Of a stretch of DNA of 64,000 nt, positions 8,222-51,846 are shown piece after piece. Source of the stretch: an uncultured Spirochaetaceae bacterium (GTDB taxonomy: Bacteria; Spirochaetota; Spirochaetia; Sphaerochaetales; Sphaerochaetaceae); the NCBI GenBank assembly GCA_944389295.1, contig CALXLV010000030.1, positions 1 to 64,000 of the forward strand, read 5' to 3'. The notes below the pieces were generated by a model. The model saw nothing but the letters and a program-made list of their open reading frames with translations. It did no database searches and was not told where the DNA came from. Position 1 is the first letter of the stretch. Every line of letters starts with the position of its first letter. A program made the translations under genes and the position numbers.

Positions 8222-8250
8222 TTGACAGTTCTGGTGTAGCATAGTAAATG
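8222..8250 (+). promoter_or_regulatory. Probable promoter of the isomerase-xylulokinase unit
   Basis: TTGACA at 8222-8227 with a weak -10 (TAAATG, 8245-8250) at 17 bp. The palindrome at 8258-8269 falls where the transcript would begin. An alternative -35 (TTGACT, 8215) with TAGCAT at 8237 cannot be excluded. Confidence 0.45.
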
Positions 8251-8257
8251 TAATAGT

Positions 8258-8269
8258 GTGCTCGAGCAC
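8258..8269. promoter_or_regulatory. LacI-type operator, copy 1
   Basis: A perfect 12-bp palindrome with central CG (GTGCTCGAGCAC) between the promoter and the ribosome site of the isomerase gene. The identical sequence occurs at 11484-11495 before the importer gene. Both units are encoded beside a LacI-family regulator (16170-17192), its likely ligand (inference). Confidence 0.8.
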
Positions 8270-8284
8270 GAGAGAGGAGGCTGT

Positions 8285-9766: not shown

Positions 9767-9776
9767 GGTCAGCGAT

Positions 9777-11246: not shown

Positions 11247-11267
11247 AGGGCAGATAATGCTCTTCAG

Positions 11268-11298
11268 GGCCATATCTCATAGGGGTATGGCCTTTTTT
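11268..11298 (+). terminator. Terminator after xylB
   Basis: GGCCATA (11268-11274) pairs with TATGGCC (11286-11292), followed by TTTTTT at 11293-11298. Confidence 0.9.
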
Positions 11299-11444
11299 AT
11301 GCAGTATGATATTACTTTCTGCTTGATCTCTGATTGTTAAGATACAACGCACTGATCAGAATGTTCCGTCTTTTGCTTTCATGGTTTTCTTTGCAGGAAA
11401 AGAAATAAATATACGATAAATGAATAACCATTGTATAATTTTCC

Positions 11445-11473
11445 TTGACAGATATCGGATATAGGCCGATACT
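11445..11473 (+). promoter_or_regulatory. Promoter of the pentose importer-GH43 operon
   Basis: TTGACA (11445-11450) and GATACT (11468-11473) are separated by 17 bp. The operator starts 10 bp beyond the -10, so a bound repressor would block the start point. The upstream 11299-11444 is AT-rich and holds no gene I can support. Confidence 0.7.
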
Positions 11474-11483
11474 GTAGGACAGA

Positions 11484-11495
11484 GTGCTCGAGCAC
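11484..11495. promoter_or_regulatory. LacI-type operator, copy 2
   Basis: Identical 12-bp palindrome to 8258-8269. A half copy (GTGCTCG, 11499-11505) follows exactly 15 bp later and could be a second, weaker contact. Confidence 0.8.
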
Positions 11496-11531
11496 ACTGT
11501 GCTCGGGAATAGTCTTTTTACGGAGGTTATG

Positions 11532-12818
11532 ATGAATAAGAGAATCATCAGCATCGTGCTTGCGGCTCTCCTTGCATCCTCAATGGTATTCGCAGGCGGA
11601 AGCAGCGAGTCTGACGGAACATCGCTCAGGTTCATGTGGTGGGGCGGTGACGACCGCAATGCCGCTACTACGGAAGTCATAAACAAGTATATGGAGGAGA
11701 ACCCCGGAGTGCAGATCTCTGCCGAGATCAACTCGGATTCCGGATACATCGACAAGGTCGCAGTCATGCTTTCCAGCCGCACGGCTCCGGACATCATGCA
11801 GCAGAATGTTGATGCGGTTCCCGATTTCGTTTCCCGCGGTGATTTCTTCGTGGATTTCAACGAGTATCCTGAGCTTTTTGATACATCCGCGTTCGATCCG
11901 CACTTCCTTGAGAGCTTCGGAACATTCGACGGCAAGCTCCTTGCTATTCCTACCGGAATCTCAGGTCTTGCGATGGTCGCCAACAATGCAGCCGCTGAGG
12001 CATGCGGAGTTGATCTTACTCAGCAGCTTTCATGGGACAGCCTCTTCGCAGAGGGCGTGAGGGTGCATCAGGAGAACCCCGATTACTACCTTCTCAACGT
12101 TGATACCAAGATTCTCGCAGAGTATGTACTCCGCCCGTACCTCAGGCAGATCACAGGCGACAAGTTCATCGTTGACGAGGAACTGAGGATGGGATTTACG
12201 CGCGATCAGCTCGTTGAGGCTCTTTCCTATATTGATCAGTGCTACAAGCAGGGTGTATTCCAGCCCGCTCAGGAGAGCGCCACATTCAAGCAGCAGACAC
12301 AGAACAACCCGAAGTGGATCAACGGCCAGTTCGTATTCGGTTTTGCGGCCACTTCCAATATGAACCTTCTGATGGCTGCTATCCCCGGCGGTTCCTTCAC
12401 GGCTGTCAAGCTCCCGCTTGCTGAGGACAGAGTTACGGATGCCTACTTTGCCGATACTCCGCAGTACATGACTGTATATTCCGGATCAAAGAACGTGGAG
12501 GAGGCCATCAAGTTCCTCAACTACTTCTACAACGATCCTGAGGCACAGCTCATCCTCGGAGATGTCAGGTCCGTACCTCCCACATCCACTGCACGCCAGG
12601 TCTGCGCTGACAACGGCATGCTCGATCCTGTCATCATGCAGGCTGTCGAATATGCCCAGTCGATGAACGGAACGAGCGACAAGGGACTTTCAACGAATCC
12701 TGAGGTCATTCAGATTCAGGAAGACGCGATTGAGAGCGTGGCATACGGCACAGCAACTCCTGAGGAGGCTGCCGACAAGGCCATCACCCTTATCAACGAT
12801 TTCCTTTCAAGACAGTAA
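11532..12818 (+). CDS. Sugar ABC transporter substrate-binding protein
   Basis: A 428-residue SBP_bac_1-type protein. It has a clear signal peptide (MNKR, hydrophobic IISIVLAALLASSMV, cleavage after FA before GGSSE) and lacks a lipobox cysteine. The mature start LRFMWWGGDDRN and the later NPKWINGQFVFGFA and EEAIKFLNYF stretches are typical of CUT1 binding proteins. GGAGG at 11522-11526 serves ATG 11532 (or ATG 11529 immediately before). It is first in an operon with two permeases and a GH43 enzyme and under the LacI operator, so xylo- or arabino-oligosaccharides are plausible ligands (inference). Confidence 0.93.
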   Translation: MNKRIISIVLAALLASSMVFAGGSSESDGTSLRFMWWGGDDRNAATTEVINKYMEENPGVQISAEINSDSGYIDKVAVMLSSRTAPDIMQQNVDAVPDFVSRGDFFVDFNEYPELFDTSAFDPHFLESFGTFDGKLLAIPTGISGLAMVANNAAAEACGVDLTQQLSWDSLFAEGVRVHQENPDYYLLNVDTKILAEYVLRPYLRQITGDKFIVDEELRMGFTRDQLVEALSYIDQCYKQGVFQPAQESATFKQQTQNNPKWINGQFVFGFAATSNMNLLMAAIPGGSFTAVKLPLAEDRVTDAYFADTPQYMTVYSGSKNVEEAIKFLNYFYNDPEAQLILGDVRSVPPTSTARQVCADNGMLDPVIMQAVEYAQSMNGTSDKGLSTNPEVIQIQEDAIESVAYGTATPEEAADKAITLINDFLSRQ

Positions 12819-12827
12819 TGCAATGAT

Positions 12828-12861
12828 TCCCTGCGGCTATCCGGCAGCCGCAGGGATTTTT
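12828..12861 (+). terminator. Attenuating hairpin between binding-protein and permease genes
   Basis: An 11-bp perfect stem (12828-12838 with 12846-12856) is followed by TTTTTCC. The permease genes downstream have no promoter I can see, so this is likely a partial terminator or mRNA-end stabiliser that lowers permease expression relative to the binding protein. Confidence 0.75.
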
Positions 12862-12889
12862 CCTGCCGGAATAAATTTAGAGGTCTGCT

Positions 12890-13804
12890 ATGGCGAACAA
12901 CAAAACAGGGATTGCCGTTCAGGGGCGCAAGCATTGGGCAAAGAGAAACAGAACAGGTCTGTACTATGTCAGCATCTGGCTTATAGGCATGGCCGTATTC
13001 CAGCTTTACCCGTTCATAACATCCCTTTACTATTCATTCACCGATTATGGTATCTTCAATGCTCCGGAGTGGGTCGGAGGCGATAACTATGTGCGCCTCT
13101 TCACGCTCGACACCGAGTTCTTCAACTCAATGAGAGCGACGCTTGAATACACATTCATAACCGTCCCGGGAAAAGTAATCTTCGCTCTTATCATAGCCCT
13201 TATCCTCAATAAGAAGCTCAAGGGCGTTAACTGGATAAGGACCATATACTATATACCATCGCTTCTCAGCGGCTCTGTCGCGGTTTCTATCCTCTGGAAG
13301 GTTCTCTTCATGGATGACGGATTCATCAACAGCCTTCTTTCTGTTCTGCACATTCCCACAGTGGCATGGCTCGGCTCTCCGCATACGGCGCTTCTGACGA
13401 TCTGTCTGCTGGAGATCTGGCAGTTCGGCTCGTCGATGGTCATGTTCCTCGCAGCTCTCAAGCAGGTTCCCACCTCGCTTTACGAGGCGGCTCTCATCGA
13501 CGGTGCGAAGAAGACTACGATATTCTTCAAGATCACATTCCCGATGATCTCGTCCGTCACATTCTTCAACCTCATAATGCAGCTGATACAGGCTCTGCAG
13601 AACTTCACCAGCGCGTTCGTCATCACCAACGGCGGTCCGTCGAAGGCGACATATGTGCTCGGTCTGAAGCTCTACACCGATGCATTCAGGTATTTCAGGA
13701 TGGGATATGCCTGTGCGACTTCATGGATCATGTTCGCCATGATGCTCGTGCTGACGCTCATTCTCTTCGCCACATCGAAGAAGTGGGTCTACTACGACAA
13801 TTGA
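12890..13804 (+). CDS. Sugar ABC transporter permease, MalF/UgpA type
   Basis: A 304-residue permease with a basic N-terminus followed by six hydrophobic segments. The first is YYVSIWLIGMAVFQLYPFI. The EAA loop reads EAALIDGAKKTTIFFKITFP near residues 197-216. An AGAGGT site precedes the ATG. It pairs with the next permease (13 bp apart) to form the channel for the sugar captured by the protein at 11532. Its hydrophobic pattern and length match the CUT1 family; no ATPase is encoded here. Confidence 0.93.
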   Translation: MANNKTGIAVQGRKHWAKRNRTGLYYVSIWLIGMAVFQLYPFITSLYYSFTDYGIFNAPEWVGGDNYVRLFTLDTEFFNSMRATLEYTFITVPGKVIFALIIALILNKKLKGVNWIRTIYYIPSLLSGSVAVSILWKVLFMDDGFINSLLSVLHIPTVAWLGSPHTALLTICLLEIWQFGSSMVMFLAALKQVPTSLYEAALIDGAKKTTIFFKITFPMISSVTFFNLIMQLIQALQNFTSAFVITNGGPSKATYVLGLKLYTDAFRYFRMGYACATSWIMFAMMLVLTLILFATSKKWVYYDN

Positions 13805-13817
13805 TGGAGGTGTGAAA

Positions 13818-14663
13818 ATGACAGCAAAGCAGAGAGAAATAAAGACAATCGTCGCATATGCAGTGATAATAGTCGTCGGAATAGTGATGCTCTTCCCGCT
13901 CTTCTGGATGATTCTCGCGTGCTTCAAGACGAACAACGAAATCTTCGGAAGCCTGAAGCTCTTTCCTTCATCATGGAGTTTTGATGCATTTGTTAAGGGC
14001 TGGCAGACAACGGGAACATACACCTATGCCCGCTATTTCGCCAACACATTCGAGCTTGTAGTGCCTACCGTGATATTCACACTCATCTCCTGTTCGCTCG
14101 TTGCCTATGGTTTCGCGCGTTTTGATTTCAGGGGAAAGAATGTGCTCTTCATGGTGCTCATAGCGACCCTGATGCTTCCCAACTCGGTAATCATCATTCC
14201 CCGCTATTCGCTTTTCAACAAACTCGGATGGCTCGACACCTATCTGACGTACTGGGTACCCGCGCTCTTCGCGTGCTATCCATTCTTCGTGTTCATGATG
14301 GTGCAGTTCCTGCGCGGTATTCCAAGAGATCTTGATGAGTCCGCCTACATGGACGGCTGCGGATCGCTCAGATGCTTCGGGCAGATACTTCTTCCGCTTC
14401 TGAAGCCTGCGCTTTTCTCGGCATCGCTTTTCCAGTTCCTGTGGACGTGGAATGACTTCTTCAACACGAACATCTACATCAACTCGAACTCCAAGTTCCC
14501 GATGTCGCTCGCGCTGAGAATGAGCATCGATGTCACATCCGCGATCCAGTGGAATCAGATCATGGCAATGGGACTTGTCTCCATACTCCCGCTCGTGATT
14601 CTCTTCTTCGCTGGACAGAGGTATTTCGTCGAGGGTATCGCCACGACAGGCATGAAGAACTAG
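13818..14663 (+). CDS. Sugar ABC transporter permease, MalG/UgpE type
   Basis: A 281-residue permease, partner of the preceding gene. GGAGG at 13806-13810 is 7 bases before ATG 13818; the in-frame GTG at 13812 is too close to it. The first membrane segment is followed by MILACFKTNNEIF. The EAA loop reads ESAYMDGCGSLRCFGQILLP, and the chain ends YFVEGIATTGMKN, close to the family's usual EGLTxGGVK ending. It is translated just ahead of the GH43 gene, 8 bp downstream. Confidence 0.93.
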   Translation: MTAKQREIKTIVAYAVIIVVGIVMLFPLFWMILACFKTNNEIFGSLKLFPSSWSFDAFVKGWQTTGTYTYARYFANTFELVVPTVIFTLISCSLVAYGFARFDFRGKNVLFMVLIATLMLPNSVIIIPRYSLFNKLGWLDTYLTYWVPALFACYPFFVFMMVQFLRGIPRDLDESAYMDGCGSLRCFGQILLPLLKPALFSASLFQFLWTWNDFFNTNIYINSNSKFPMSLALRMSIDVTSAIQWNQIMAMGLVSILPLVILFFAGQRYFVEGIATTGMKN

Positions 14664-14671
14664 GAAGGAAT

Positions 14672-16183
14672 ATGTACTCTAATCCTGTTATCTATGCAGA
14701 TTACTCCGATCCTGATCCAGTCAGGGTCGGAGATGATTTTTATATGGTGGCATCATCGTTCACCTATGTTCCGGGTGTGCCGATCCTGCACTCGAAGGAT
14801 CTGGTCCACTGGGAGATAATCAATTACGCGGTGAGAAAACTTCCGTTCGAGAAGTACAGAAAGCCTTCCCACGGTTCCGGCACATGGGCGCCGTCCATCA
14901 GATACCGCGATGGAGAGTTCTACATCTTCATTCCTCTTGTTGATGAAGGCATAATGGTTGCGCGTTCCAGGGATATAAGAGGGGAGTTTGAACTCAATAT
15001 GCTCACGCATACGAAGGGGTGGATCGATCCCTGTCCGATATGGGACACAGACGGACGGACATACATGGTCTTTGCCTTCGCATTCTCCCGCTCAGGAAAG
15101 AAGCATAAGCTGGCCCTGATAGAGACAGACAATGACTTCCGCAGGACGATCGGGGATTACTCCATAATCTTCGACGGCTCTGTGATGGCTCCGACAGCAG
15201 AGGGCCCCAAGGCTTACTACCGCGGCGGGTATCACTACATAATGTTCCCCGCAGGCGGAGTTGCGACAGGGTGGCAGTGCTGCATAAGGTCGAAGGATGT
15301 ACACGGCCCTTATGAGTACAGGACAGTGATGCGCCGCGGCCTTTCCAATGTGAACGGACCGCATCAGGGAGGATGGGTAACCGCTCCTGACGGCTCCGAC
15401 TGGTTCGTGCACTTTCAGGATGTCATAGAGCTGGGCCGCATAACGCACCTCCAGCCCATGTGCTTCACGTCCGACGGATGGCCCGTCATCGGAGTGGACC
15501 GCGACGGCGACGGAATAGGGGAGCCTGTGGATGAGTGGAATCTGCCTGTTGAGGGCGCACCTCATTATTCGATAGCGATATCTGATGAGTTCGATGGCGA
15601 TGCGCTCTCGCTCCAGTGGCAGTGGCAGGCCAATCCCGATGAGAGTTTCTTCTCGCTCACGGAGCGCAGAGGATATCTCAGAATGAACTGTATCCTTAAC
15701 GATGAGAGGGAGAATCTTATATGGTATGCTCCCAATGCGCTGACGCAGATTCCGCAGAGCGATCACTTCACGGCTGAGGCATGTCTTGAGCTGAACGCGG
15801 CTGAGGATGGCGATTTCGGCGGCATAGGCATGATAGGCCATCAGTACGGTTTCATCGGCCTTGAGAGAAATAACGGTTCAATGCTCCTGAAAGTCATAAA
15901 AGGCACTGTCACGGGAATCACATACGAGGGAGAGGCTGTGGAAGAGGATATACTCTCGCTTCCTTTTGCTTCTGATCGTGTGTATCTCCGCATAGAGCTG
16001 AGAAAGGACAAGAACTACTTCCTCTCTTATTCTGCAGACGGCGGGCATTACACCACCGTCGATCATATCTTCCCGCTGGAGCGGGCCACATGGACGGGCG
16101 CAAAGCTCTCCATATGGGCCGGCAACAGGGAGAACAGGACTTCGGAAGGAAGTGCTGATTTTGATTATTTCAGATTGAGCTGA
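14672..16183 (+). CDS. GH43 glycosidase (beta-xylosidase/alpha-L-arabinofuranosidase type)
   Basis: A 503-residue five-bladed propeller enzyme with a C-terminal beta-sandwich. The N-terminus NPVIYADYSDPDPVRVGDDFYM contains the catalytic base D13. IDPCPIWD near residue 118 carries the pKa-modulating aspartate and TAEGPK near residue 176 the general acid. The C-terminal part (from about 300, FDGDALSLQWQWQANP) is the xylosidase-type concanavalin-like domain. There is no signal peptide, so it cleaves imported oligosaccharides in the cytoplasm, releasing xylose or arabinose for the isomerase and kinase upstream. GGAAGGA precedes the start. It overlaps the convergent lacI-type gene by 14 bp. Confidence 0.92.
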   Translation: MYSNPVIYADYSDPDPVRVGDDFYMVASSFTYVPGVPILHSKDLVHWEIINYAVRKLPFEKYRKPSHGSGTWAPSIRYRDGEFYIFIPLVDEGIMVARSRDIRGEFELNMLTHTKGWIDPCPIWDTDGRTYMVFAFAFSRSGKKHKLALIETDNDFRRTIGDYSIIFDGSVMAPTAEGPKAYYRGGYHYIMFPAGGVATGWQCCIRSKDVHGPYEYRTVMRRGLSNVNGPHQGGWVTAPDGSDWFVHFQDVIELGRITHLQPMCFTSDGWPVIGVDRDGDGIGEPVDEWNLPVEGAPHYSIAISDEFDGDALSLQWQWQANPDESFFSLTERRGYLRMNCILNDERENLIWYAPNALTQIPQSDHFTAEACLELNAAEDGDFGGIGMIGHQYGFIGLERNNGSMLLKVIKGTVTGITYEGEAVEEDILSLPFASDRVYLRIELRKDKNYFLSYSADGGHYTTVDHIFPLERATWTGAKLSIWAGNRENRTSEGSADFDYFRLS

Positions 16184-17192
16184 GATACTCCGAGTCGATA
16201 TTCTCGGTCAGCTTCACGATATGCTGGGTGCAGAGGTTTTCGGGTTTTATCCCGTCGATGAACCAGCTCTGCATCCGGCGTACCGACTCAAAACCCTGGC
16301 GGAAAGGCTCCTGGCAGATTGTCCATTTGATCCGTCCGCTTCTTATCAGATTCTTCGTCTCTGGAACATCATCGGATGTGAATATGAGAAGATTCCTTCC
16401 GGCTGCTCCCTTCACGGCACCAGATACGCCTGCCGTGGTTATGAAGAGGGTGTTTATTGTCTCATCCTCTGCAGTCTTTTCTCTGACTATTCTCTCCGAA
16501 AGCTCGTTGTCATCCGATGTGTCGTACTCGCCGGCTATCGTGGCATCGATTCCCTTCTTCACGAGAGTATCCGTGAATCCTCTGACTATATCGCCATGGC
16601 CCTTCATTGCCTCTGAACCTCTGAGTATGAGGATGCGTCTCTTCTTCTCTCCCGCAAGGGCCAGCAGTCCGGCGTGAAGCGCGCCTTTTGCGTAGTAGTC
16701 TGGGCCGACATAGCAGAGCTTTGAGGGAAGAGATATATCGGAATTTACGGCTATCACGGGAAGGGTGAGGTTTGCGAGGTAGTCGGTGATCATCCTGTCA
16801 TCTATCGTTGCCAGCACGAGCGCATCGCATTTCTCATCTTCAACTAGGTGTTTTATGGCTTCAAGATGCGTCGATCTGTCAAATCCCTTGACCTCTGCAA
16901 GCGCCAGTGAGAATCCTATGTCCTCATACTCGGACGTGGCCATCTTCATTCCCTCGATTACTGGATCAAAGAAGGGATTCCCCACGGAGGTGACGAGAGC
17001 ACCTATCCTGCGGGGCTGCTTTCTCAGTGCGAGCATCAATCCGGCCCTGTTCGGCTGGTAGTTGAGCTCCTTGGCCTTTGCCAGCACCTTTTCCCTTATT
17101 TCGGGAGATACCTTTCCCCTGTTGTGCAGAACGCGGTCCACCGTTCCGCGCGATATTCCGAGTATTTCAGCAAGTTCCTTTATCGTAACCAT
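16170..17192 (-). CDS. LacI-family transcriptional regulator of the pentose regulon
   Basis: A 340-residue regulator. Residues 1-55 are the LacI helix-turn-helix and hinge (VTIKELAEILGISRGTVDRVL, then SPEIREKVLAKAKELNYQPN). Residues about 60-330 are a periplasmic-binding-type sugar domain (IGALVTSVGNPFFDPVIEGM, and TICQEPFRQGFESV near the end). It is convergent with GH43 and shares 14 bp with it. Its neighbourhood holds two identical perfect palindromes with central CG, the form of operator LacI proteins bind, so repression of both units is the simplest reading. No such palindrome is seen before its own gene. Confidence 0.9.
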   Translation of the reverse strand: MVTIKELAEILGISRGTVDRVLHNRGKVSPEIREKVLAKAKELNYQPNRAGLMLALRKQPRRIGALVTSVGNPFFDPVIEGMKMATSEYEDIGFSLALAEVKGFDRSTHLEAIKHLVEDEKCDALVLATIDDRMITDYLANLTLPVIAVNSDISLPSKLCYVGPDYYAKGALHAGLLALAGEKKRRILILRGSEAMKGHGDIVRGFTDTLVKKGIDATIAGEYDTSDDNELSERIVREKTAEDETINTLFITTAGVSGAVKGAAGRNLLIFTSDDVPETKNLIRSGRIKWTICQEPFRQGFESVRRMQSWFIDGIKPENLCTQHIVKLTENIDSEYLSSI

Positions 17193-42422: not shown

Positions 42423-42446
42423 AGCGGGCTGCGGCCCGCTTTTTTC
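42423..42446 (+). terminator. Terminator of the lipoprotein-barrel operon
   Basis: AGCGGGC pairs with GCCCGCT over a TGCG loop, followed by TTTTT. It also overlaps the end of the convergent brnQ gene. Confidence 0.9.
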
Positions 42447-43698
42447 ATCTGTGTTTCAGCTTCAGCATATCGGCGGCAAGGCCTGCAAGGGAGAATATGA
42501 GAGAGGGGATTATCCATCCGAAACCTGATGATGAGAAGGGAAGGGAAACTCCTGCAGTTGTCAGAAGTGATGATATCAGGGCAGCGGATACGCCGAGCCT
42601 GTAGGTGCATATCATTCTTCCGCTTCCTGGAATCAGTCCAAGAATTATCAGCATTATGGCTCCCGGATAGATCAGAGATAGGATTGGAGAGGAGAGCGAG
42701 ATGATCTTCTCAAGTCCTGCGTTGGCTATGATTCCTGATATCACGGCGAAGAGCGCGATCCACTTTCCTCTCGATATGGAGGGGACCAGTCTTGAAAAAT
42801 ACTCACCGCAGGATGAGAGAAGGCTTACGGATGTGTTGAAGCAGGCTATTATGAAGATTAGGGCTATCAGGATTCTTCCGTATGACGGGGATATCTCTGC
42901 CGCTGCTGCGGATAATATGTCCGCTCCGGTCTGCGGAGATGATATGAAGCTGTGGCCTCTCACTCCTATGAAGGCGAGAGCGGAGTAGATAAGCAGAAGC
43001 AGCATTCCGCCGAAGAGAGAGGCTATGGCGCCCTCCTTGAGCTTCCTGTCATCGCTGACTTTCATCTCCGTGAGATTGACAGAAAGAAGAAGTCCGAATA
43101 CAAGGCCTGCTATCGCATCCATCGTCTGATAGCCTTCCTGAAAACCAACTGAGAACGGATGCCCGGCATATCTTTCCGAGACTGCATTCCCTGCTGCAGC
43201 GGGTTCTGCTGCAACTCCAGCGAAAAGAATGACTATAAGCAGAATAAGCAGAGGAGAGAGTATGCGGCCGAGTCTTTTTGAGAGTTTCTCCGGTCTGAGC
43301 GCTACCAGAGCTCCGGCAGTGAAGAAGAGAGCAGAATAGATTATTCCTGGAATTCCGCGCGGTATTCCTGCTGCCGCTACAACCATCTCGAAACTTGTGC
43401 TGGCAGTTCTCGGAATCGCTAGGCATGGGCCTATTGTCAGGTAGATGGCTATTGTGAATATGACGCTGAAAATGGGATGCACACGGGAGGCAAGTTCCGT
43501 GAGCGATCCGGAGCGGCCTATCGCGATAAGCGAGAGGACGGGAAGTCCGATAGCCGTCAGCGCGAAACCAGCAAAAGCGGGAATGAGAGATGGCCCGGAT
43601 TCATATGCCAGGAATACAGGGAATATTAGATTGCCGGCTCCGAAGAACATTGCGAATACCGTGAATGATAGTATCATCCTTTCCTTTGCTCTGTGCAT
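42445..43698 (-). CDS. brnQ: Branched-chain amino acid:cation symporter
   Basis: A 417-residue LIVCS-family carrier with about twelve membrane segments. The start MILSFTVFAMFFGAGNLIFPVFLAYESG is characteristic of BrnQ, which imports Leu, Ile and Val with Na+ or H+. Two starts are possible: ATG 43698, and ATG 43677 preceded closely by AAAGGAAAGG. The second matches the family's usual start better. The gene is monocistronic and convergent with the barrel-protein operon. Confidence 0.9.
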   Translation of the reverse strand: MHRAKERMILSFTVFAMFFGAGNLIFPVFLAYESGPSLIPAFAGFALTAIGLPVLSLIAIGRSGSLTELASRVHPIFSVIFTIAIYLTIGPCLAIPRTASTSFEMVVAAAGIPRGIPGIIYSALFFTAGALVALRPEKLSKRLGRILSPLLILLIVILFAGVAAEPAAAGNAVSERYAGHPFSVGFQEGYQTMDAIAGLVFGLLLSVNLTEMKVSDDRKLKEGAIASLFGGMLLLLIYSALAFIGVRGHSFISSPQTGADILSAAAAEISPSYGRILIALIFIIACFNTSVSLLSSCGEYFSRLVPSISRGKWIALFAVISGIIANAGLEKIISLSSPILSLIYPGAIMLIILGLIPGSGRMICTYRLGVSAALISSLLTTAGVSLPFSSSGFGWIIPSLIFSLAGLAADMLKLKHR

Positions 43699-43883: not shown

Positions 43884-45057
43884 CTTTATTTCTTTCATCG
43901 TTTTTCCATGCTGCTATCAGAATTATGGGAATAAGCATTGATAGTGACATTATCATAAAGCCCTTCTTCAGCTGAATTATATCTGCAGAGAAAAAGGATA
44001 TTATCCATGGTCCTATTGTTCTTCCGAGACATATGCTCAGCTGCTGTATTGTGACAAGCCTCGGAGCATTTGCTTTCTTTTCCATCATCAGTGTGTTTGT
44101 TGCTGTTTCGGCCAAACTGTATCCTATTCCGAATGTCAGAGCGGAAATTGATGAGAGGAGATAGAAACTCATGTTTGAAACCGTTGCTGCAATTATCGCA
44201 AAACAGAGAAGCCCATATCCGAAGATGAGCCGTATTTTGGTTGTTATGCATATGCTGGTGTATAGTTTCTGCGAGATGACCATTGAGAGTGCGAAGATCG
44301 CAAAATAGAATGAGTAGCTTCTCTCTTGTCCTTCAGCAAGCAGAGGAAAATACGTTAGAAGCAACATATCCACTATCCCAAGAAAAAAGAATGCAATTAT
44401 CGGGAGGATTGTTGTTTTTGAAAAATTTTCTTTGCCTCCTTCTGCATTGGCTGAAGCAGGTGAGAACTGAGATGTTCTTTCCAGAATTTCAAGACCTTTT
44501 ACGTATAGAATGAGGCAGATAATAGATGAAGATAGGGCAACAACAAATACAGCATCATATGTATATCTGGATAGAAGATACTCTGTTATAGCAGGAGAGA
44601 GCATCATTGAAATAGGCATTGCCATTCCTATGAGGCTCGTATGCTTCACCATTTCCTTTCCTGTATTTGCTGTATTTGTTATTGCAATGAGATTTATGAC
44701 CGGAAATAGTGAGAAAGGTGCTCCGAAAAGTGCTCTCAGCAATGTGATTGCCATAGGGGAGTTCGCCCCAAATAATATAAATGCAAGCGTTATAATCGAG
44801 AGACATATCAGGTCAGCAATGATGAGCTTTTTGAGTTTGATCCGTTTTATCATTGCCGGTGTAATAAATTTCATTATGATTGTAACAGCTCCCATGGCTG
44901 CAGTACATTGCCCAACGACTTTCAGCGGGAATCCCATGTCATTTATCAGCAGGGGAATGGCAACAGAAAGAATATGATTGTTTGCAAAGAAACAGATTGT
45001 ACCTGCAACCATGAGAAGAATTCCAGCTTCTCTTCTGTTTGCATTAGAAATGAGCAT
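43867..45057 (-). CDS. Major facilitator superfamily transporter
   Basis: A 396-residue transporter with about twelve hydrophobic segments. The inner-loop basic patch PAMIKRIKLKKLIIADL lies after segment two as in MFS proteins, and a charged linker splits the two halves near residue 200. The substrate is unknown. It overlaps the BtpA/SgcQ gene by 14 bp and should be co-transcribed with it, diverging from the sugar ABC locus at 45933. The genes from here to about 51850 look more AT-rich than their neighbours, which may reflect transfer. Confidence 0.85.
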   Translation of the reverse strand: MLISNANRREAGILLMVAGTICFFANNHILSVAIPLLINDMGFPLKVVGQCTAAMGAVTIIMKFITPAMIKRIKLKKLIIADLICLSIITLAFILFGANSPMAITLLRALFGAPFSLFPVINLIAITNTANTGKEMVKHTSLIGMAMPISMMLSPAITEYLLSRYTYDAVFVVALSSSIICLILYVKGLEILERTSQFSPASANAEGGKENFSKTTILPIIAFFFLGIVDMLLLTYFPLLAEGQERSYSFYFAIFALSMVISQKLYTSICITTKIRLIFGYGLLCFAIIAATVSNMSFYLLSSISALTFGIGYSLAETATNTLMMEKKANAPRLVTIQQLSICLGRTIGPWIISFFSADIIQLKKGFMIMSLSMLIPIILIAAWKNDERNKVTARC

Positions 45058-45799
45058 TATCTATGAACCGCTTCATCTTATCCTGGTCGAAAGCCTTATT
45101 TGTTTTCAGACATGAGCTTACTATGACTCCATCACATAGGGAGAGAATCTCATGTACGTTATCAGGGGTTGAGTTACCTCCGCATATTACAAATGTCTCA
45201 GGAAAGTCATTTTTAACTTCTTTTATCATGCGGATTGTTTCCATATAATCATGCCCGCATATTATGAGAGCAGATACTCCAAGTTTTATCGCCATTGAAC
45301 ATGCAGTTTTTAAGGGTATCGTACCAAGTGGAACTCCTGTAAGGTTGAATATATCTGAAAATATCATGGCATCTACTTTGTTCTCGATTTTATACCTTAC
45401 AGCCTCTGGACCCTGACCATTTATAAGCCCGCTGTTTCTGATAGAAGCTCCTATGAAGTTCTTTATTCTTACCATATCGCATGCTGCTGCTTTTGCTGTT
45501 GCCAGTATTGCCTTCGCATCATCGCATTCCATTTGTGATCCAATCGAAAAACCGGGTGTCCTGTCCTTTACAACTGCAGTAATTGCGGCCAGATTCGCAA
45601 TTGTATCCATCGTCAGGTTGCCCGGCGTAGTATCCTGAATAAAAACACCATGAAAGCCTTTTTCTGCAAAAATAAACGCATCATAGGCTGCTTTTTCTGT
45701 TATTTTTGATATATCGGCTTCCGATTTTCCGAGAAAAGATGGAAGCTGGATTGAGCCTAGAAGCAATTTTTCATTTGAATTAACTTGTAATGATAACAT
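45044..45799 (-). CDS. BtpA/SgcQ-family TIM-barrel protein
   Basis: A 251-residue protein with the BtpA-type sequence: LLGSIQLPSF at the start, GFHGVFIQDTTPGNLT near residue 50, MVRIKNFIGASI and a closing CDGVIVSSCLK. BtpA was named for photosystem I stability in cyanobacteria, but SgcQ-type members occur in sugar gene clusters of heterotrophs and have no agreed reaction. Here it is divergent from an ABC importer with SIS and PfkB enzymes, consistent with a sugar-phosphate role (inference). Confidence 0.8.
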   Translation of the reverse strand: MLSLQVNSNEKLLLGSIQLPSFLGKSEADISKITEKAAYDAFIFAEKGFHGVFIQDTTPGNLTMDTIANLAAITAVVKDRTPGFSIGSQMECDDAKAILATAKAAACDMVRIKNFIGASIRNSGLINGQGPEAVRYKIENKVDAMIFSDIFNLTGVPLGTIPLKTACSMAIKLGVSALIICGHDYMETIRMIKEVKNDFPETFVICGGNSTPDNVHEILSLCDGVIVSSCLKTNKAFDQDKMKRFIDNAHF

Positions 45800-45872: not shown

Positions 45873-45901
45873 TTGACTGCCCTGGCTACAGATGATATGT
45901 T
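45873..45901 (+). promoter_or_regulatory. Promoter of the second sugar ABC operon
   Basis: TTGACT (45873-45878), 17 bp, TATGTT (45896-45901). AGTCAA, its reverse complement, lies at 45841-45846; the same pair of arms occurs as a perfect inverted repeat upstream of the regulator gene at 51897. Confidence 0.55.
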
Positions 45902-45932
45902 GACATTATAAGTTACCAAAAGGAGGTGTCTT

Positions 45933-47183
45933 ATGAAAAAGGTTGTGGTTACACTGCTTGGATTTCTCATATTAACATCCGTCTGTTTTGCTGGTGGTTC
46001 ATCCGAAGCAGAGGGAAATCCCGTTATATGGGCCAAATCGGGACCGGAAGGAACAGCACTTCAGGCGGCGGCCGAAGTCTATAAGGAGGAGACGGGAAAG
46101 ACAATCGATGTTGTAATTCAGGGCAGAAGCGGTTATCGACCTGCCTATAATACAGCACTTTTGGCAGGCAGTTCCGAACTGGACGCCGTCCTTGATACAG
46201 CTTTTGTTGTACCAGGACTTGCAGCAGGTGGACATATTCTCTCTGTTGATCAGTATATAAAAGACGCTGAAGGATACGATATTGATGATTTTGACGATGT
46301 AATCGTCAGCGAAATGTCATATGGCGGCGAGTGGTACATGTTCCCCACCGATATCTCTGCTGAATCGCTCGTATATAGAACAGATCTTTTTGAGAAGAAA
46401 CCTGAGACTTGGGATGAGCTTATCGAGATGGCAAAAAAGTTTACGCGTTCGATAAATCCTGATTCTCCAACAGAGTATGGCTTTGGATTCTCAGGCATGA
46501 ATAGCGTACTTGAAGGTACTTTCCAGGGAATAATGAAGGCATATGGTGCTGAGCTTATAGATGAAGAAACAATGGAGATAAAAGTTGATTCAAAAGAGGC
46601 AAAGCAGGCCTTCCAGATTTATACCGATATGAGAAACAATTGGAAGATCGTGCCTCCGGATGTTACTGCATGGGATTATGCGGAACCTCTCATTGCACTT
46701 CAGGAAGGTGTTGTTGCCTCTGCGCAGTTCTTTACAGCAGGAATGCCCGATCTCTATTCCGAGGAACTTACTCCCGAGCTAGCTGGAAAGTTTGCTTTTG
46801 TAGCTCAGCCGGCAGGACCATATGGATCATTCACAAGAATTAATCCTTTGGGAATTATGGTTAATGCAAATGGCGAACATCTTGAAGCAACGATAGAGTT
46901 CCTTCTCTGGCTTACCGGAAAGGAAGGAGGCAGAGTCTATACTGATGCGGGCGGAGCATCTCCGAGAAAGTCGATTATGTCCGATCCTAAATACATGGAA
47001 GAAAGACCATGGTATGAAGAACTTATCAAGGCTACTGAACACGGTGTTGGAAGCATTCGTGTCGCAGAGCAGGCAATTATAAAGGAATCTTTTAACAAAT
47101 GGGCAAGTTTGGCTCTCAATGGTGATATGAGCGTCGATGAGGCTTTTGATGCTGCAGCTGAAGAGATGAGAGACAGCATCTGA
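45933..47183 (+). CDS. Sugar ABC transporter substrate-binding protein
   Basis: A 416-residue binding protein with a signal peptide (KKVVVTLLGFLILTSVCFA, then GGSSEAEG; the cysteine is not in a lipobox position). The chain has SBP_bac_1 features: QGRSGYRPAYNTALLAG, ETWDELIEMAKKFT and IEFLLWLTGKEGG near residue 310. AAAAGGAGGTG precedes the ATG. It starts the operon of SIS protein, PfkB kinase and two permeases. The ligand is therefore likely an amino-sugar or fructosamine type compound (inference). Confidence 0.93.
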   Translation: MKKVVVTLLGFLILTSVCFAGGSSEAEGNPVIWAKSGPEGTALQAAAEVYKEETGKTIDVVIQGRSGYRPAYNTALLAGSSELDAVLDTAFVVPGLAAGGHILSVDQYIKDAEGYDIDDFDDVIVSEMSYGGEWYMFPTDISAESLVYRTDLFEKKPETWDELIEMAKKFTRSINPDSPTEYGFGFSGMNSVLEGTFQGIMKAYGAELIDEETMEIKVDSKEAKQAFQIYTDMRNNWKIVPPDVTAWDYAEPLIALQEGVVASAQFFTAGMPDLYSEELTPELAGKFAFVAQPAGPYGSFTRINPLGIMVNANGEHLEATIEFLLWLTGKEGGRVYTDAGGASPRKSIMSDPKYMEERPWYEELIKATEHGVGSIRVAEQAIIKESFNKWASLALNGDMSVDEAFDAAAEEMRDSI

Positions 47184-47198
47184 GAAAGGAAGATGAAG

Positions 47199-47227
47199 AC
47201 GCATGCAGCATGTGAGGCTGCATGCGT
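47199..47227 (+). other. Intercistronic hairpin after the binding-protein gene
   Basis: ACGCATGCAGC (47199-47209) pairs perfectly with GCTGCATGCGT (47217-47227) over a 7-base loop, with no T-run. As at 693 and 12828, it lies directly after a binding-protein gene. Confidence 0.7.
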
Positions 47228-47253
47228 TCCTGTAATAGCATTGGAGATTATTC

Positions 47254-48384
47254 ATGAGATATGCTGGAATGCCTCGTCCCAGAGCGAAGGCGAAGGAAAA
47301 ATCATTGGATACCGGACGTGATCCAAACAGGATCAGCAGGGTAGAGAAGACATACAAGGAGCTGATAGCTCAGCCTGAGGCTTTCAGTAATACAATTCAT
47401 TATACTGATGAGGTGAAGGAGAAATTCACGGATGATCTGCTCCACAGGAAAATTAGGAGAGTAGTTCTCATCGGGTGCGGTGATTCCTGGTTTGTGGGAA
47501 CATGCCTTGAAGTTCTTATCGAGAAACTGCTTGCATGTCCTTGTCAGAGTTATGATGCGTTTGAGTTCTATACATCTCACTATAGTGTTGCGAATGAAAA
47601 TACGCTCCTTATCGGACAGAGCGCAAGCGGAACGACAAAAGCTGTAATCGGCTCAATTAAGAGAGCAAAGGAACGCGGCTCATACACAGTTGGAATAAGC
47701 AACACACCGGATGCAGAGATACTTACAATTGCTGATTTTGGTCTTCTTGTACAAGCAAGCCGTGAAGGCTGGCCAACTCAGGCAACGATTTCTGCAATAG
47801 GGGCAATTGCTCAGCTTTTTGCATCGCTTTGCCTCGCGAGAGGGGAGAATGTCTCATATGCTGATAACGTAATCCGAGAACTGTTTCTGCTTCCTCTAAA
47901 GATCAGAAAAGCGATTGATGATAATGAGGAGATCATAAGTAAGTCTGCTTCTCTCTTTGATAGGACTTTGTTTTTTCAGGCTGCAGGATCGGGATGTCTT
48001 TATGGAGCCAGTATGATAGCTGCAGCAAAGCTCAAGGAACTCTGTCCTGTTCATGCTTCATCCTATCCGCTTGAGGAATTTCATCATTATAGAAGCCTGA
48101 AGCCTGCTGATCCACTTATTCTTTTTGTTCAAGGAGGAGATATACAGCAGAAAGAGGAAGATACAGCTCTTGTCGGTGCATATGACGGTGGTGTGATTAT
48201 AGTAATCGGGAATTCTATTACAGATGAGATGCATAAAGTAACTGATCTATTTTTCATTGTACCGGAAACTTTGAGGGAACTTCAGTCTATTGTTTCGGTG
48301 ATCCCTGCTCACCTCTTCGCATATTACGTTGCGAAGAGCAAGTTTGAAGCAGATATTGGATATCCATCCATGGAGCAGCTATGA
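47254..48384 (+). CDS. Tandem SIS-domain sugar-phosphate isomerase/deglycase-like protein
   Basis: A 376-residue protein with two SIS domains. The first has VLIGCGDSWFVG near residue 70 and LLIGQSASGTTKAVIGSI near residue 112, the sugar-phosphate serine loop. The second has FQAAGSGCLYGASMIAAAKLKEL near residue 247 and YPLEEFHHYRSLKPADP near residue 270. The layout is that of GlmS isomerase-domain relatives, including fructosamine-6-phosphate deglycases (FrlB) and AgaS. The following kinase overlaps it by 4 bp, so kinase product and SIS substrate are probably the same compound. The exact substrate is not determined. Confidence 0.8.
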   Translation: MRYAGMPRPRAKAKEKSLDTGRDPNRISRVEKTYKELIAQPEAFSNTIHYTDEVKEKFTDDLLHRKIRRVVLIGCGDSWFVGTCLEVLIEKLLACPCQSYDAFEFYTSHYSVANENTLLIGQSASGTTKAVIGSIKRAKERGSYTVGISNTPDAEILTIADFGLLVQASREGWPTQATISAIGAIAQLFASLCLARGENVSYADNVIRELFLLPLKIRKAIDDNEEIISKSASLFDRTLFFQAAGSGCLYGASMIAAAKLKELCPVHASSYPLEEFHHYRSLKPADPLILFVQGGDIQQKEEDTALVGAYDGGVIIVIGNSITDEMHKVTDLFFIVPETLRELQSIVSVIPAHLFAYYVAKSKFEADIGYPSMEQL

Positions 48385-49376
48385 TCAATAAGAGCATCTT
48401 TGCAGGCAATAGCTCGATAGACAATGTCGTCACTTCTGATGGGGTATTCCATCAGAATACATGCGGTGGAAACTGCTTTCACGCAGCAATGGCTGCGAGG
48501 ATTCTTTCAGAAGAGAACAGAGTTGCAATATTGTCGTCTGTACCAGAAAACTTCCCAGAGAGCATTATCACATCACTGAATGAGCATTGTATCGATACGT
48601 CTCTCATTACTCATGAGTCTGAGAAAGTTGAATGGAATGAGCTCTTTGTTTATGGTGCTGACGGAGAAAGAAGAGATGGCATCTTTATTTCTCTCCGCAG
48701 TGATCTTGATGGCAAGGTACTCTCTGCAGATGAAAAGAAGAGGCTCCTGTCGCAGAAATGTGACGACTATACATATGCAGATTTCAGACGTGATCATGTA
48801 CCGGATATATCTCTCATTCCGGCTGAGTGGAATGTGATATCTCTGCATCTGGCTCCATCGACGCTTTCGGCTCATAAGGCATTTCTTGAGAAGAGGTATC
48901 CTCTTGTTACTCTTGATCCCGGAAGGTATTTGGTCGGAATGAAATACGATGATGTTATAGACATCATCAGAATGACTGATGTTTTCATTCCATCAAAGAA
49001 AGAGATGAAATTCATCTTTGATGATGACAATCTTGAACGTTCTGTACGTAAGCTGGCCTCTGATGCTGGAACAAACATAATCTGCAAGAACGGAAAGTCG
49101 GGCTGCATTGTCTATGACAGCAGAAAGAAGAAGTTATATGAGGTTGGCATCTATCCAGAGGAGAAAGTTGTCAACCTTACGGGAGCAGGAGATTCATTCT
49201 GCGGTGCTTTGAATGCGGCAATTGTTTGCGGATACGAACTTCTGGAAGCAGCACGCATTGCGACTGTTGTTGCAGCTAAAGCAATTGAGACCGTTTCCGC
49301 CATTGACAGGGACAAAATCACAAAAGAAACTGCTGTCTCACTATCTGAGGCTGTTCCATGCAAGGAGGTTTTATGA
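48381..49376 (+). CDS. PfkB-family sugar kinase
   Basis: A 331-residue ribokinase-fold enzyme. The N-terminal region has GGNCFHAAMAARIL near residue 28, and the phosphate-transfer motif NLTGAGDSFCGALNAAIV is near residue 262, with the catalytic Asp in GAGDSF. SKKEMKFIF near residue 198 is the TPNExE-like segment. Family members phosphorylate ribose, fructose, nucleosides or fructosamines. It overlaps the SIS gene (4 bp) and the next permease, so it acts in the same pathway. In frl-type loci the PfkB enzyme (FrlD) phosphorylates the Amadori product before the deglycase. Confidence 0.87.
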   Translation: MINKSIFAGNSSIDNVVTSDGVFHQNTCGGNCFHAAMAARILSEENRVAILSSVPENFPESIITSLNEHCIDTSLITHESEKVEWNELFVYGADGERRDGIFISLRSDLDGKVLSADEKKRLLSQKCDDYTYADFRRDHVPDISLIPAEWNVISLHLAPSTLSAHKAFLEKRYPLVTLDPGRYLVGMKYDDVIDIIRMTDVFIPSKKEMKFIFDDDNLERSVRKLASDAGTNIICKNGKSGCIVYDSRKKKLYEVGIYPEEKVVNLTGAGDSFCGALNAAIVCGYELLEAARIATVVAAKAIETVSAIDRDKITKETAVSLSEAVPCKEVL

Positions 49377-50287
49377 TGCAAAAAGCATTGGAGAAGAGGA
49401 GATTTTTTAGGTTTCTTGATGATCATCTTGGACTTGTATTCATAGTTCCAGCAATGCTGATTCTCTGTCTGCTAATCGTTTATCCGCTGCTGTTCAATAT
49501 CAACATGAGTCTTCACAAAGTGAACATGCTGAACTTTCGTTCATCGGAATGGGACTTCGTCGGTCTTGAAAATTATATCGATGTGCTCACAGATAAAACA
49601 GTTCTGGTATCCTTGCTTAGAACAGTAGCATTCATGGTTATAACTGTTATCGGTCAGGTCGTACTTGGGATGATAGGAGCTTTAACCCTGAATACAAAGA
49701 TAAAGGCAAAAGGTGCATTCACCGTTTGTGTCCTGCTTCCGATGATGATGACGCCGATCGCTGTAGGTCTTTTCTGGCGAATACTGTTCAACCGACAGTG
49801 GGGGCTGATAAATTATTTTATCGGTTTCCTTGGATTCGAGCCTGTACCATGGCTCTATGAGTCGACCACAGCTTTTATATCAGTTTGTTTCGTACAGATA
49901 TGGTGGGGTGTCTCTTTTGTCATACTTGTACTTTTAGGAGGATTGAGCGCGCTTCCTGCAGAGCAGTTCGAAGCTGCGGAGATTGATGGTGCCTCAAAAT
50001 GGCAGAGCTTCATTCACATCACGCTTCCAGACATGAAGCCCGTTCTGAATACTGTGATTATGCTGAGGGCGATCGATGCCTTCAGAGAGTTTGATCTTAT
50101 ATATACTCTCACACAAGGAGGGCCTGGAGAGGCTACCAGGGTCTTCTCTCTGCAGCTTTATCTCACATCATTTGAAAGTCATAACTTCTCAGATGGAGCA
50201 GCTGAAGCGATTATTCTGACGATTATCACGCTTGTTCTTGCCAGCGGTCTTATCAAGAGTTTAAGTGAGGGGGATAGCAATGACTGA
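49376..50287 (+). CDS. Sugar ABC transporter permease, MalF/UgpA type
   Basis: A 303-residue permease. AAGGAGG (49362-49368) is 7 bases before ATG 49376; ATG 49373, which overlaps the kinase stop as ATGA, is the alternative. Six hydrophobic segments are visible from FLDDHLGLVFIVPAMLILCL on. The EAA loop reads EAAEIDGASKWQSFIHITLP near residues 202-221. Partner of the next permease, feeding the kinase and SIS pair. Confidence 0.92.
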   Translation: MQKALEKRRFFRFLDDHLGLVFIVPAMLILCLLIVYPLLFNINMSLHKVNMLNFRSSEWDFVGLENYIDVLTDKTVLVSLLRTVAFMVITVIGQVVLGMIGALTLNTKIKAKGAFTVCVLLPMMMTPIAVGLFWRILFNRQWGLINYFIGFLGFEPVPWLYESTTAFISVCFVQIWWGVSFVILVLLGGLSALPAEQFEAAEIDGASKWQSFIHITLPDMKPVLNTVIMLRAIDAFREFDLIYTLTQGGPGEATRVFSLQLYLTSFESHNFSDGAAEAIILTIITLVLASGLIKSLSEGDSND

Positions 50288-51116
50288 TTTACAGATAGGA
50301 AAAGGACCTTTTCGCAATATTGCTGCATATATCATAGGAATACTTCTCGTCATCATATTGATAGCTCCTCCTATTTATATGATTTCTATATCATTCAAAA
50401 CTGGGCGAGATGTCTTCAGCATGCCGCCTAAATTCATATTTACTCCATCACTGGAGAATTATAAGGAGATTTTCTCTTCACGAGGTTTTCTTGATACCGT
50501 ATTCAATACGGTTGTCATCAGCCTCATTTCAACACTCCTTACAGAGGTCATTGGAGCTATGGCTTCATACAGCATTGCAAAATTCAGGACAGGTGGAAGG
50601 CCTGTTCTCTACAGTGTGCTGATAATGAGAGTACTCCCATCTGTCGTTCTGGGACTTCCACTTTTCATAATGTTCTCAAAACTCCATATTCTAGATACTA
50701 TCGGTGGACTTACTCTTGCATATATTGGATTTCTCCTGCCCAATACCGTATGGCTAATGATTCCGTTCTTCCAAGGTGTTTCAAAGAGCATCGAAGAGGC
50801 TGCAAGAATTGATGGGTGTTCAAACTTGAGAACATTTATGAGCATATCCCTTCCTCTTTGTCGTTCAGGAATTATTGTCACGACGGTGTACAACATAACA
50901 GGTGCATGGAACCATTTCTACTATGCTCTGACGCTTGCACCAACAAAAACGCGGGTTCTCTCAGTTGAGGCATCACAGTATGTAGGGGAGTATGCTGTGC
51001 AGTGGGGAACGGTTGCTGCAATATCTGCTGTATTGATAATTCCGCCAGCTGTCCTAATATTCTTCATCCAGAAGCAGCTTATTTCAGGACTGTCTCTTGG
51101 AGGCGTCAAAGGATGA
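50280..51116 (+). CDS. Sugar ABC transporter permease, MalG/UgpE type
   Basis: A 278-residue permease overlapping its partner by 8 bp. GAGGGGG at 50268-50273 precedes ATG 50280, favoured over GTG 50265. The chain has MISISFKTGRDVFSMPP after the first membrane segment, the EAA loop EAARIDGCSNLRTFMSISLP, and ends LISGLSLGGVKG, typical of MalG-type subunits. It ends 1 bp before the convergent regulator's stop. Confidence 0.92.
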   Translation: MTDLQIGKGPFRNIAAYIIGILLVIILIAPPIYMISISFKTGRDVFSMPPKFIFTPSLENYKEIFSSRGFLDTVFNTVVISLISTLLTEVIGAMASYSIAKFRTGGRPVLYSVLIMRVLPSVVLGLPLFIMFSKLHILDTIGGLTLAYIGFLLPNTVWLMIPFFQGVSKSIEEAARIDGCSNLRTFMSISLPLCRSGIIVTTVYNITGAWNHFYYALTLAPTKTRVLSVEASQYVGEYAVQWGTVAAISAVLIIPPAVLIFFIQKQLISGLSLGGVKG

Positions 51117-51117
51117 T

Positions 51118-51846
51118 TCAGTAATCTATCTTCTTGATTATGAATTCGAACTTGTCTGCCCTCATCAGAGTGTATGCGAGTTCGAATTTTTTGTCGCCGA
51201 TATAAGAGGTCGATACAGTCTTGCAGCATGTAAATCCATCTGCAACTTCAAGTAGTCTGGCATCGGAGCCATAGACATTCTCAACTGTCAGTCTTATCGT
51301 TCCGGATGTCGGTTCCTGCAGGAATTCAGTTCTCATGTAGTTTGTTATTGAAAAATTGTCCTGAAGTGGAATCTGCAGCAATCTTGCTCCATACTGCCAG
51401 AGCATGTAACTCCATGTTATTGCAACAGGTACATCATCTATAAGTCTTAGGCGTTTTAGATATACCGCTTTTTCATTCGGCTGCGCATCAAGCTCTCCTG
51501 CTATAGCACTGTCAAGCAGTTCTGTTCTGATCTGGAGTATCTGTGTTGATGGGTGAATATCCTTCTCGCTCTCCATCATTCCGAAGAAACGGGTTTTTGA
51601 AGAGGAAAGGTCTCTGGAGATTTTTGGCTGAGCTACATAAGTGCCTTTTCCTTGCTTGCGGAATATATATGAGTCATTCTGAAGCATCTGAAGCGCAGAG
51701 ATGATCGTTGTCCGGCTGACTTTGAATCTTGTACAGAGCTCAGCTTCGCTTGGAAGCATTTCTCCTGGTTTAAATACACCTTTTACTATCGATGTCCTGA
51801 GCTGCTCATAAATTTGATATTTCAAAGGGACATTGTTGAGTGTCAT
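51118..51846 (-). CDS. GntR-family regulator, HutC/UTRA subfamily
   Basis: A 242-residue regulator. The winged helix has VPLKYQIYEQLRTSIVKG, LPSEAELCTRFKVSRTTIISALQML and the QGKGTYVAQ wing (residues about 4-72). The UTRA ligand domain follows (EKAVYLKRLRLIDDVPVAITWSYM near residue 137), ending KFELAYTLMRADKFEFII. UTRA regulators usually sense phosphorylated sugars. It is convergent with the importer operon it most likely controls. FrlR of the fructosamine systems belongs to the same subfamily. Confidence 0.9.
   Translation of the reverse strand: MTLNNVPLKYQIYEQLRTSIVKGVFKPGEMLPSEAELCTRFKVSRTTIISALQMLQNDSYIFRKQGKGTYVAQPKISRDLSSSKTRFFGMMESEKDIHPSTQILQIRTELLDSAIAGELDAQPNEKAVYLKRLRLIDDVPVAITWSYMLWQYGARLLQIPLQDNFSITNYMRTEFLQEPTSGTIRLTVENVYGSDARLLEVADGFTCCKTVSTSYIGDKKFELAYTLMRADKFEFIIKKIDY

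Follow-up and report, generated by a model that had tools for sequence, protein, structure and literature searches.

A 64,000-nucleotide stretch of DNA from an uncultured Spirochaetaceae bacterium (contig CALXLV010000030.1; hereafter the window) carries an eight-gene sugar locus that combines a double-SIS enzyme and a PfkB-family kinase with a BtpA/SgcQ-family protein, the substrate-binding protein (SBP) and two permeases of an ATP-binding cassette (ABC) importer, a major facilitator superfamily (MFS) transporter and a GntR/UTRA regulator. The eight genes form one insertable unit that recurs in a second spirochaete; SIS–BtpA gene pairs are also found in Mesorhizobium and two actinomycetes. Neither the SIS nor the PfkB protein of the window falls within the clades of the fructosamine (frl) enzymes. 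The cassette probably degrades a sugar with a nitrogen substituent, either an amino sugar or an N-linked glycoside, rather than serving as an frl locus. We favor this reading because of the chemistry of the enzyme families, the nucleoside-type neighbors of SIS and BtpA relatives, and one amino-sugar locus that contains a related SIS.

Five genes form an operon in the order SBP–SIS–PfkB–permease–permease, with overlaps of 4, 19 and 23 bp between consecutive genes from SIS through permease 2. The BtpA and MFS genes, which overlap by 14 bp, diverge from the operon, and the GntR/UTRA gene converges on it (Table 1). All eight proteins score above curated Pfam cut-offs. Open reading frames and Pfam agree with the gene set that the original prediction had read at 45873–51846 (ABC importer, double SIS, PfkB and GntR/UTRA) and with its description of a divergent BtpA/SgcQ and MFS pair; they revealed no ATPase, NagA or NagB gene among the eight. 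The source assembly is 1.98 Mb in size and 87.5% complete.

A search of genome contigs, with a reach limited to close relatives, found a single related locus (L003; contig CALXYI010000039.1 of an uncultured Spirochaetaceae metagenome-assembled genome), in which all eight genes are present in the same order and between the same flanks. Protein identity between the window and L003 is 56–88% across the eight genes (66% for the SIS) and 95% for the flanking argG. In both, the eight genes sit between argG and a neighboring branched-chain-permease-like gene (42445–43698 in the window). We searched 16 same-genus genomes for these two genes, each of which was matched in 12. In seven genomes (G431, G470, G093, G140, G455, G462 and G417) the two lie only ~200–260 bp apart, and inspection of the spacers by eye showed that in six of the seven the argG terminator is followed directly by the sequence found beyond the window's MFS gene, that is, an empty site. 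Three genomes (G124, G427 and G471) have the permease gene on a different contig from argG, and the others gave no match to the permease gene (G422 and G437), to argG (G034 and G398) or to either (G069 and G133). BtpA had no match at E 1e-6 in 14 of the 16 genomes; G124 and G427 do have BtpA proteins, but these belong to subtypes other than that of the window. The empty sites together with L003 indicate that the eight genes were gained or lost together, most simply by gain in an ancestor of the two carriers, with loss as the alternative. Judged from these sequence comparisons, the unit is an accessory cassette, probably self-contained and catabolic, to which the BtpA and MFS genes, lying outside 45873–51846, also belong. 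The empty sites and the SIS–BtpA pairs found elsewhere led us to reject BtpA as a chance neighbor.

We infer the reactions, the substrate class and the regulation of the cassette as follows. The family chemistry of SIS, PfkB and UTRA proteins suggests a phosphosugar that bears its nitrogen at C1 or C2. The SBP and the two permeases would import the compound with the help of an ATPase encoded elsewhere, and the PfkB kinase would phosphorylate it. The double-SIS enzyme would then open and isomerize the phosphosugar and move or release its nitrogen via Glu262 and His278 (and Lys259), and BtpA, a phosphate-binding sort of TIM barrel, would catalyze one more reaction of the phosphorylated compound. 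The UTRA regulator would sense the phosphosugar and control both divergent units. Relatives of the SIS and of BtpA have nucleoside-type neighbors: in L073 (G124:C3:55274-73188, 7110-12341) an SIS of the same broad group lies beside an IU-type nucleoside hydrolase and a nucleoside deoxyribosyltransferase, other SIS relatives lie beside 7-deazapurine genes (L034) or a nucleoside-phosphorylase-like gene (L035), and, of 18 Spirochaetota places with BtpA, seven have a BMP/PnrA-type importer and five an adjacent PfkB gene (Bmp and PfkB being Pfam-confirmed in one, L059). Further neighbors in L073 are a xylose-isomerase-like protein, a UPF0047 protein, a radical-SAM-like protein, an ABC importer and a UTRA-type regulator. 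Conserved BtpA loci of another kind (L057–L060, in G104, G124, G427 and G423) encode a BMP-type SBP, an ABC ATPase, two permeases, PfkB and BtpA, with Fe-ADH, isochorismatase and an aldo/keto reductase in addition in L059; they look like an unassigned nucleoside-type catabolic pathway.

The association of BtpA with SIS was examined in Spirochaetota genomes and plasmid records. By tblastn, the window SIS led to plasmid pMHb of Mesorhizobium huakuii, where UTRA, PfkB, SIS, BtpA and a BMP-type importer stand in a row. The M. huakuii SIS and its Streptosporangium relative, used as queries, led to five plasmid records, reached without using BtpA. BtpA adjoins SIS in three of the five (gaps of 47 bp in Mesorhizobium and 46 bp in Streptosporangium, and a 4-bp overlap in Nonomuraea), against a base rate of 176 BtpA matches in 72,556 plasmid records. 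Rhodococcus opacus has no BtpA within 6 kb of its SIS, and one ~20 kb away on the same plasmid. The pMHb locus (MCHK_8404 to MCHK_8397) resembles the cassette in its UTRA, PfkB, SIS and BtpA genes and in a PfkB that groups with the window's, but differs in its BMP-type importer, in a protein identity of 22–31% to the window and in the lack of an annotated MFS gene. PfkB adjoins BtpA at 10 of 11 other opened plasmid loci, in which no SIS is nearby. From these counts and those in Spirochaetota, BtpA accompanies PfkB widely and SIS in one branch. In a BtpA locus common to plasmids of Rhizobiales, Rhodobacterales and Pantoea (L007–L011, L013, L039 and L040), BtpA and PfkB genes are accompanied by phosphotriesterase-like and glutamine-amidotransferase-like genes and, in most cases, by an ABC importer together with TenA or hydrolase/peptidase genes; the annotations state no function. 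The actinomycete BtpA/SIS genes are neighbored by folE-queE-queD (Streptosporangium, L034) or by adenylation/non-ribosomal-peptide-synthetase-type genes (Nonomuraea, L041; Rhodococcus, L104, where there is also an extra ileS); these neighbors hint that the BtpA and SIS proteins may take part in the assembly of natural products as well. A comparison of the Rhodococcus cluster with altemicidin clusters was dropped; a term search found neither BtpA nor isomerase in the main text of PMC6331615 and neither ribose nor hydrolase in that of PMC11610977. Searches of viral contigs with the BtpA and SIS alignments returned no relative.

The window SIS is most similar to the isomerase domain of GlmS. Among family models it scored 116 bits with GlmS, 54.7 with NagB-II (cut-off 430), 44 with GlmD (580), 26.7 with AgaS (529.2) and 20 with FrlB (PRK11382; 430), and none of the scores exceeded its cut-off. 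The alignment to GlmS starts at model position 252, and the protein consists of SIS domains only, without the N-terminal glutaminase domain. An AlphaFold2 (AF2) model of the SIS, built from two sequences (mean predicted local distance difference test score (pLDDT) 69.7), matched GFAT/GlmS isomerase domains at Z 31 and GlmD, AgaS and NagB-II entries at Z ~24–28; the two FrlB entries (8glr and 3eua, Z 21.5–21.6) stand near the foot of the 50 listed matches, a table that does not by itself exclude families outside its rows. Glu262 and His278 are conserved in all 25 SIS rows compared, and Lys259 is present in all eight proteins of the window's group and all eight of GlmS but in none of the seven FrlB/Soc rows. 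By our alignment, we take Lys259, Glu262 and His278 to be the counterparts of GlmS K485, E488 and H504, respectively (and K603 to be the GlmS tail lysine). A GDS motif with Asp77 occurs in all eight proteins of the window's group and in no other SIS row, and Glu274 is likewise common to the eight. Unlike GlmS, the window SIS belongs to an accessory unit rather than to housekeeping and has no lysine tail: the C-terminal PRNLAK.VT end with its lysine is found in 8/8 GlmS rows and 0/8 of the window's group. The idea that the SIS substitutes for GlmS was rejected, given the missing glutaminase domain and tail. At E 1e-30 the SIS query matched, among 148 genomes of the class, only its own genome and one 618-amino-acid GlmS-like frame; the own genome (87% complete) gave no second match at E 0.01 and so no sign of GlmS, and the same-genus genomes G034, G069, G133 and G140 gave no match to an SIS profile at E 1e-15.

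This similarity bears on ordinary hexosamine catabolism, in which the SIS would be a standalone aminosugar-phosphate deaminase/isomerase of the NagB-II/GlmD kind, the kinase would produce hexosamine phosphate, and BtpA and MFS would be auxiliary. Both profile and fold place the SIS nearest to the GlmS isomerase domain, NagB-II and GlmD score above FrlB, and a related SIS in Thermomicrobium is surrounded by genes for NagA, anhydro-MurNAc kinase, hexosaminidase and MurQ. However, the NagB-II and GlmD scores are far under the equivalog cut-offs, the GlmS-type lysine tail is absent throughout the window's group, and the eight genes include neither NagA nor NagB. We regard this alternative as unlikely.

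The original prediction had likened the locus to a fructosamine pathway. The resemblance holds for gene content: B. subtilis frlBONMD with a convergent frlR encodes an SBP, two permeases, an SIS-type deglycase, a kinase and a repressor (PMC12632257), and these gene kinds and the convergent repressor recur in the cassette. It does not extend to the identity of the enzymes. The SIS and PfkB of the cassette come from other branches, the gene order differs, BtpA and MFS genes diverge from the operon, and frl has the ATPase FrlP (replaceable by MsmX) just downstream, in contrast to the cassette's eight genes. The SIS tree has 25 rows and omits the Thermomicrobium SIS and a second, cut SIS gene found in L083. 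In it, all seven FrlB/Soc-type proteins are united at 100/100 to the exclusion of the window SIS, and the eight GlmS proteins at 99/99. The window and L003 proteins occupy a separate long branch and have no firm partner besides each other; the firm grouping with AgaS or GlmS that the original prediction had named as its refutation is thus not seen either. The kinase tree of 17 rows similarly unites all four FrlD/Soc proteins in a 100/100 clade with the window kinase outside; the latter groups at 97/96 with the SIS-locus kinases of Mesorhizobium and Rhizobium (L006 and L035), in a tree for which the program warns of long-branch joining and from which the kinases of L011, L013, L014, L037, L039, L040, L058 and L083 were left out. 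The window kinase scores 31.6 of the 247 bits of the FrlD equivalog model, and is indeed longer than FrlD, as had been noted, with 331 amino acids compared with 261 in E. coli and 271 in an annotated fructoselysine 6-kinase of Enterococcus. A tblastn search of the plasmid records with the window PfkB gave no match.

Membership of the fructosamine families is thus rejected by the trees, the C-terminal end signature (an RRY...Y end in 7/7 FrlB/Soc-type rows and 0/8 of the window's group) and the model scores. A true fructosamine (Amadori) pathway could still be run by divergent enzymes, with PfkB phosphorylating a fructosamine and the SIS releasing glucose-6-phosphate and an amine. In addition to the frl-like gene kinds and convergent repressor, the Glu and His columns shared with the FrlB type are kept, the SIS resembles FrlB in lacking the GlmS lysine tail, and placement as sister to the FrlB type is not rejected by an approximately unbiased (AU) test (p 0.12). 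According to PMC9609667, FraB and FrlB have their general acid and base in common; a term search of two FraB papers located no active-site residue numbers for FraB. Against such a pathway stand the position of both enzymes outside the FrlB/Soc and FrlD/Soc clades, the absence of the FrlB-type end, the presence of Lys259, the low rank of the two FrlB entries among the fold matches, and BtpA and MFS, which it leaves unexplained. We give it little credence. An Agrobacterium Ti plasmid locus (L082) provides a further comparison: its SIS also adjoins PfkB and an ABC importer, but its SIS and kinase lie inside the FrlB/FrlD-type clades. SIS–PfkB loci such as this one presumably serve opine (santhopine-type) catabolism. 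The reservation attached to the original prediction, that a different amino sugar was possible, is what fits the evidence best.

BtpA raises another alternative, the catabolism of a nucleoside-like N-glycoside, in which the phosphorylated N-glycoside would undergo an Amadori-type rearrangement catalyzed by BtpA, in the manner of TrpF and HisA, before the SIS deglycates the aminoketose. The window BtpA scores 88.2 bits with PF03437 (gathering score 30) and 94.7 bits with the NCBIfam subfamily TIGR00259, under its cut-off of 153.4. Its AF2 model is a TIM barrel (mean pLDDT 74.9) that matches HisF, HisA, RPE and TrpA among others. The BMP/PnrA-type importers and PfkB genes near Spirochaetota BtpA, the BMP-type importer of M. 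huakuii and the nucleoside-type genes beside SIS relatives (L035, L073 and L034) agree with this proposal. However, Amadori isomerases do not stand out in the fold search, where dihydropteroate synthase (Z 18.6) scores on a par with HisF (Z 17.7) and aldolases and Kemp designs match too; the many TIM barrels found do not point to any one function. Moreover, most opened BtpA loci are without SIS, the window importer is of the SBP_bac_1 rather than the BMP type, and the cassette has no nucleoside enzyme. The proposal seems quite improbable. It and hexosamine catabolism are in part special cases of the degradation of a nitrogen-substituted sugar, so that their odds overlap with those of the reading we favor. 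A complete three-step Amadori route, in which PfkB phosphorylates an N-glycoside, BtpA converts it to an aminoketose phosphate and the SIS deglycates the latter, is suggested by the TIM-barrel likeness of BtpA to HisF, HisA, RPE and TrpA and by its occurrence alongside a kinase and a deglycase-like SIS, and we consider this route a long shot.

The regulatory features of the cassette include two copies of a 19-bp element, one at each of the divergent promoters in both species, that are operator candidates. The copies have 16 of 19 bases equal, in the window and likewise in L003, and lie in opposite orientations, each pointing toward its gene. The BtpA-side copy doubles as the start of the BtpA coding sequence, which leaves the SBP-side copy as the one without coding constraint. 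A pattern made from the 19-bp sites had no other match in the own genome at ≤2 mismatches and five further matches at 3 mismatches, compared with 10 for a reversed control. The strong hairpin in the SBP–SIS spacer (z −3.14) is also present in L003, again with an 11-bp stem (z −2.70), and may restrict expression of the genes that follow the SBP gene. A promoter scan was uninformative (20 sites versus 19.1 expected by chance), and terminator-like sites numbered 17 versus 5.8 expected.

Several observations weigh against the favored reading of the unit as a cassette, distinct from frl, for the degradation of a nitrogen-substituted sugar. In the 25-row tree the window and L003 SIS join the six other SIS proteins of their group at only 54/55, and AU tests reject a sister position neither to the FrlB type, as described above, nor to GlmS (p 0.42). 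The RRY end is not a clean divide, because the M. huakuii SIS carries RRFFG near its C-terminus, a sequence similar to RRYYG in E. coli FrlB. The related Thermomicrobium SIS resides in an ordinary GlcNAc/MurNAc locus. The five SIS-linked BtpA rows group at 62/87, and the window, L003 and L006 at 79/56, in a tree that left out the BtpA of L011, L014, L039, L040, L046, L047, L049, L050, L053, L062 and L104; the long-branch warning applies to the BtpA as well as the PfkB tree. The SIS locus of R. leguminosarum (L035), with PfkB, an ABC importer and the nucleoside-phosphorylase-like gene as neighbors, has no BtpA within 7 kb, and no SIS was found near BtpA in any of the 18 further Spirochaetota BtpA places (four on contigs <9 kb) or at the 11 plasmid BtpA loci mentioned above. 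Finally, conservation of the 19-bp copy inside the BtpA start may be coding.

Table 1. Genes and intergenic elements of the cassette in the window.
Feature	Position	Strand	Remarks
MFS transporter, 396 aa	43867..45057	-	PF07690 (MFS_1) 91.7 bits; 57% identical counterpart at same place in L003
BtpA/SgcQ-family TIM-barrel protein, 251 aa, divergent subtype	45044..45799	-	PF03437 88.2 bits; L003 69% identical
19-bp element copy 1, operator candidate	45781..45799	-	coincides with first BtpA codons
19-bp element copy 2, operator candidate	45897..45915	+	non-coding, upstream of SBP gene
ABC importer SBP, 416 aa	45933..47183	+	PF01547 (SBP_bac_1) 108.1 bits; L003 87% identical
Spacer with strong hairpin between SBP and SIS genes	47184..47253	+	11-bp stem, z −3.14
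Double-SIS enzyme, 376 aa	47254..48384	+	PF01380 74.5 bits, two stretches
PfkB-family kinase, 331 aa	48381..49376	+	PF00294 75.2 bits; GAGD motif at 268-271
ABC permease 1, 309 aa	49358..50287	+	PF00528 (BPD_transp_1) 66.1 bits; L003 85% identical
ABC permease 2, 283 aa	50265..51116	+	PF00528 (BPD_transp_1) 54.9 bits; L003 88% identical
GntR/UTRA regulator, 242 aa, convergent to operon	51118..51846	-	PF00392 75.6, PF07702 66.9 bits; L003 85% identical

Elsewhere in the window, positions 1–17192 contain more ABC-importer-like and sugar-enzyme-like open frames (by eye), suggesting at least one other sugar locus.

Among the control genomes, BtpA/SgcQ proteins are found in archaea as well as in bacteria (E. 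coli and a cyanobacterium), and NCBIfam names one branch for photosystem I biogenesis. E. coli SgcQ belongs to the same Pfam family as the window BtpA, but the sgc locus is a phosphotransferase-system (PTS) locus without SIS, and SgcQ-type proteins form a separate 100/99 clade in the BtpA tree. The literature searched, mostly without subscription journals, yielded no reaction for the BtpA/SgcQ family and no BtpA–SIS link. The cassette links this widespread family to two known kinds of sugar enzyme. Its occurrence in two spirochaetes, and that of parts of it in a rhizobium and actinomycetes, places BtpA beside enzymes whose chemistry is understood and reduces the question about the family to one of substrate class. 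A matching list of genes (SBP, permeases, SIS, PfkB and UTRA) is insufficient for calling a fructosamine locus. If the three-step Amadori route were true, it would give the orphan BtpA/SgcQ family a reaction, and the cassette would encode a fructosamine-like pathway whose starting compound, an N-glycoside, lies one step further back.

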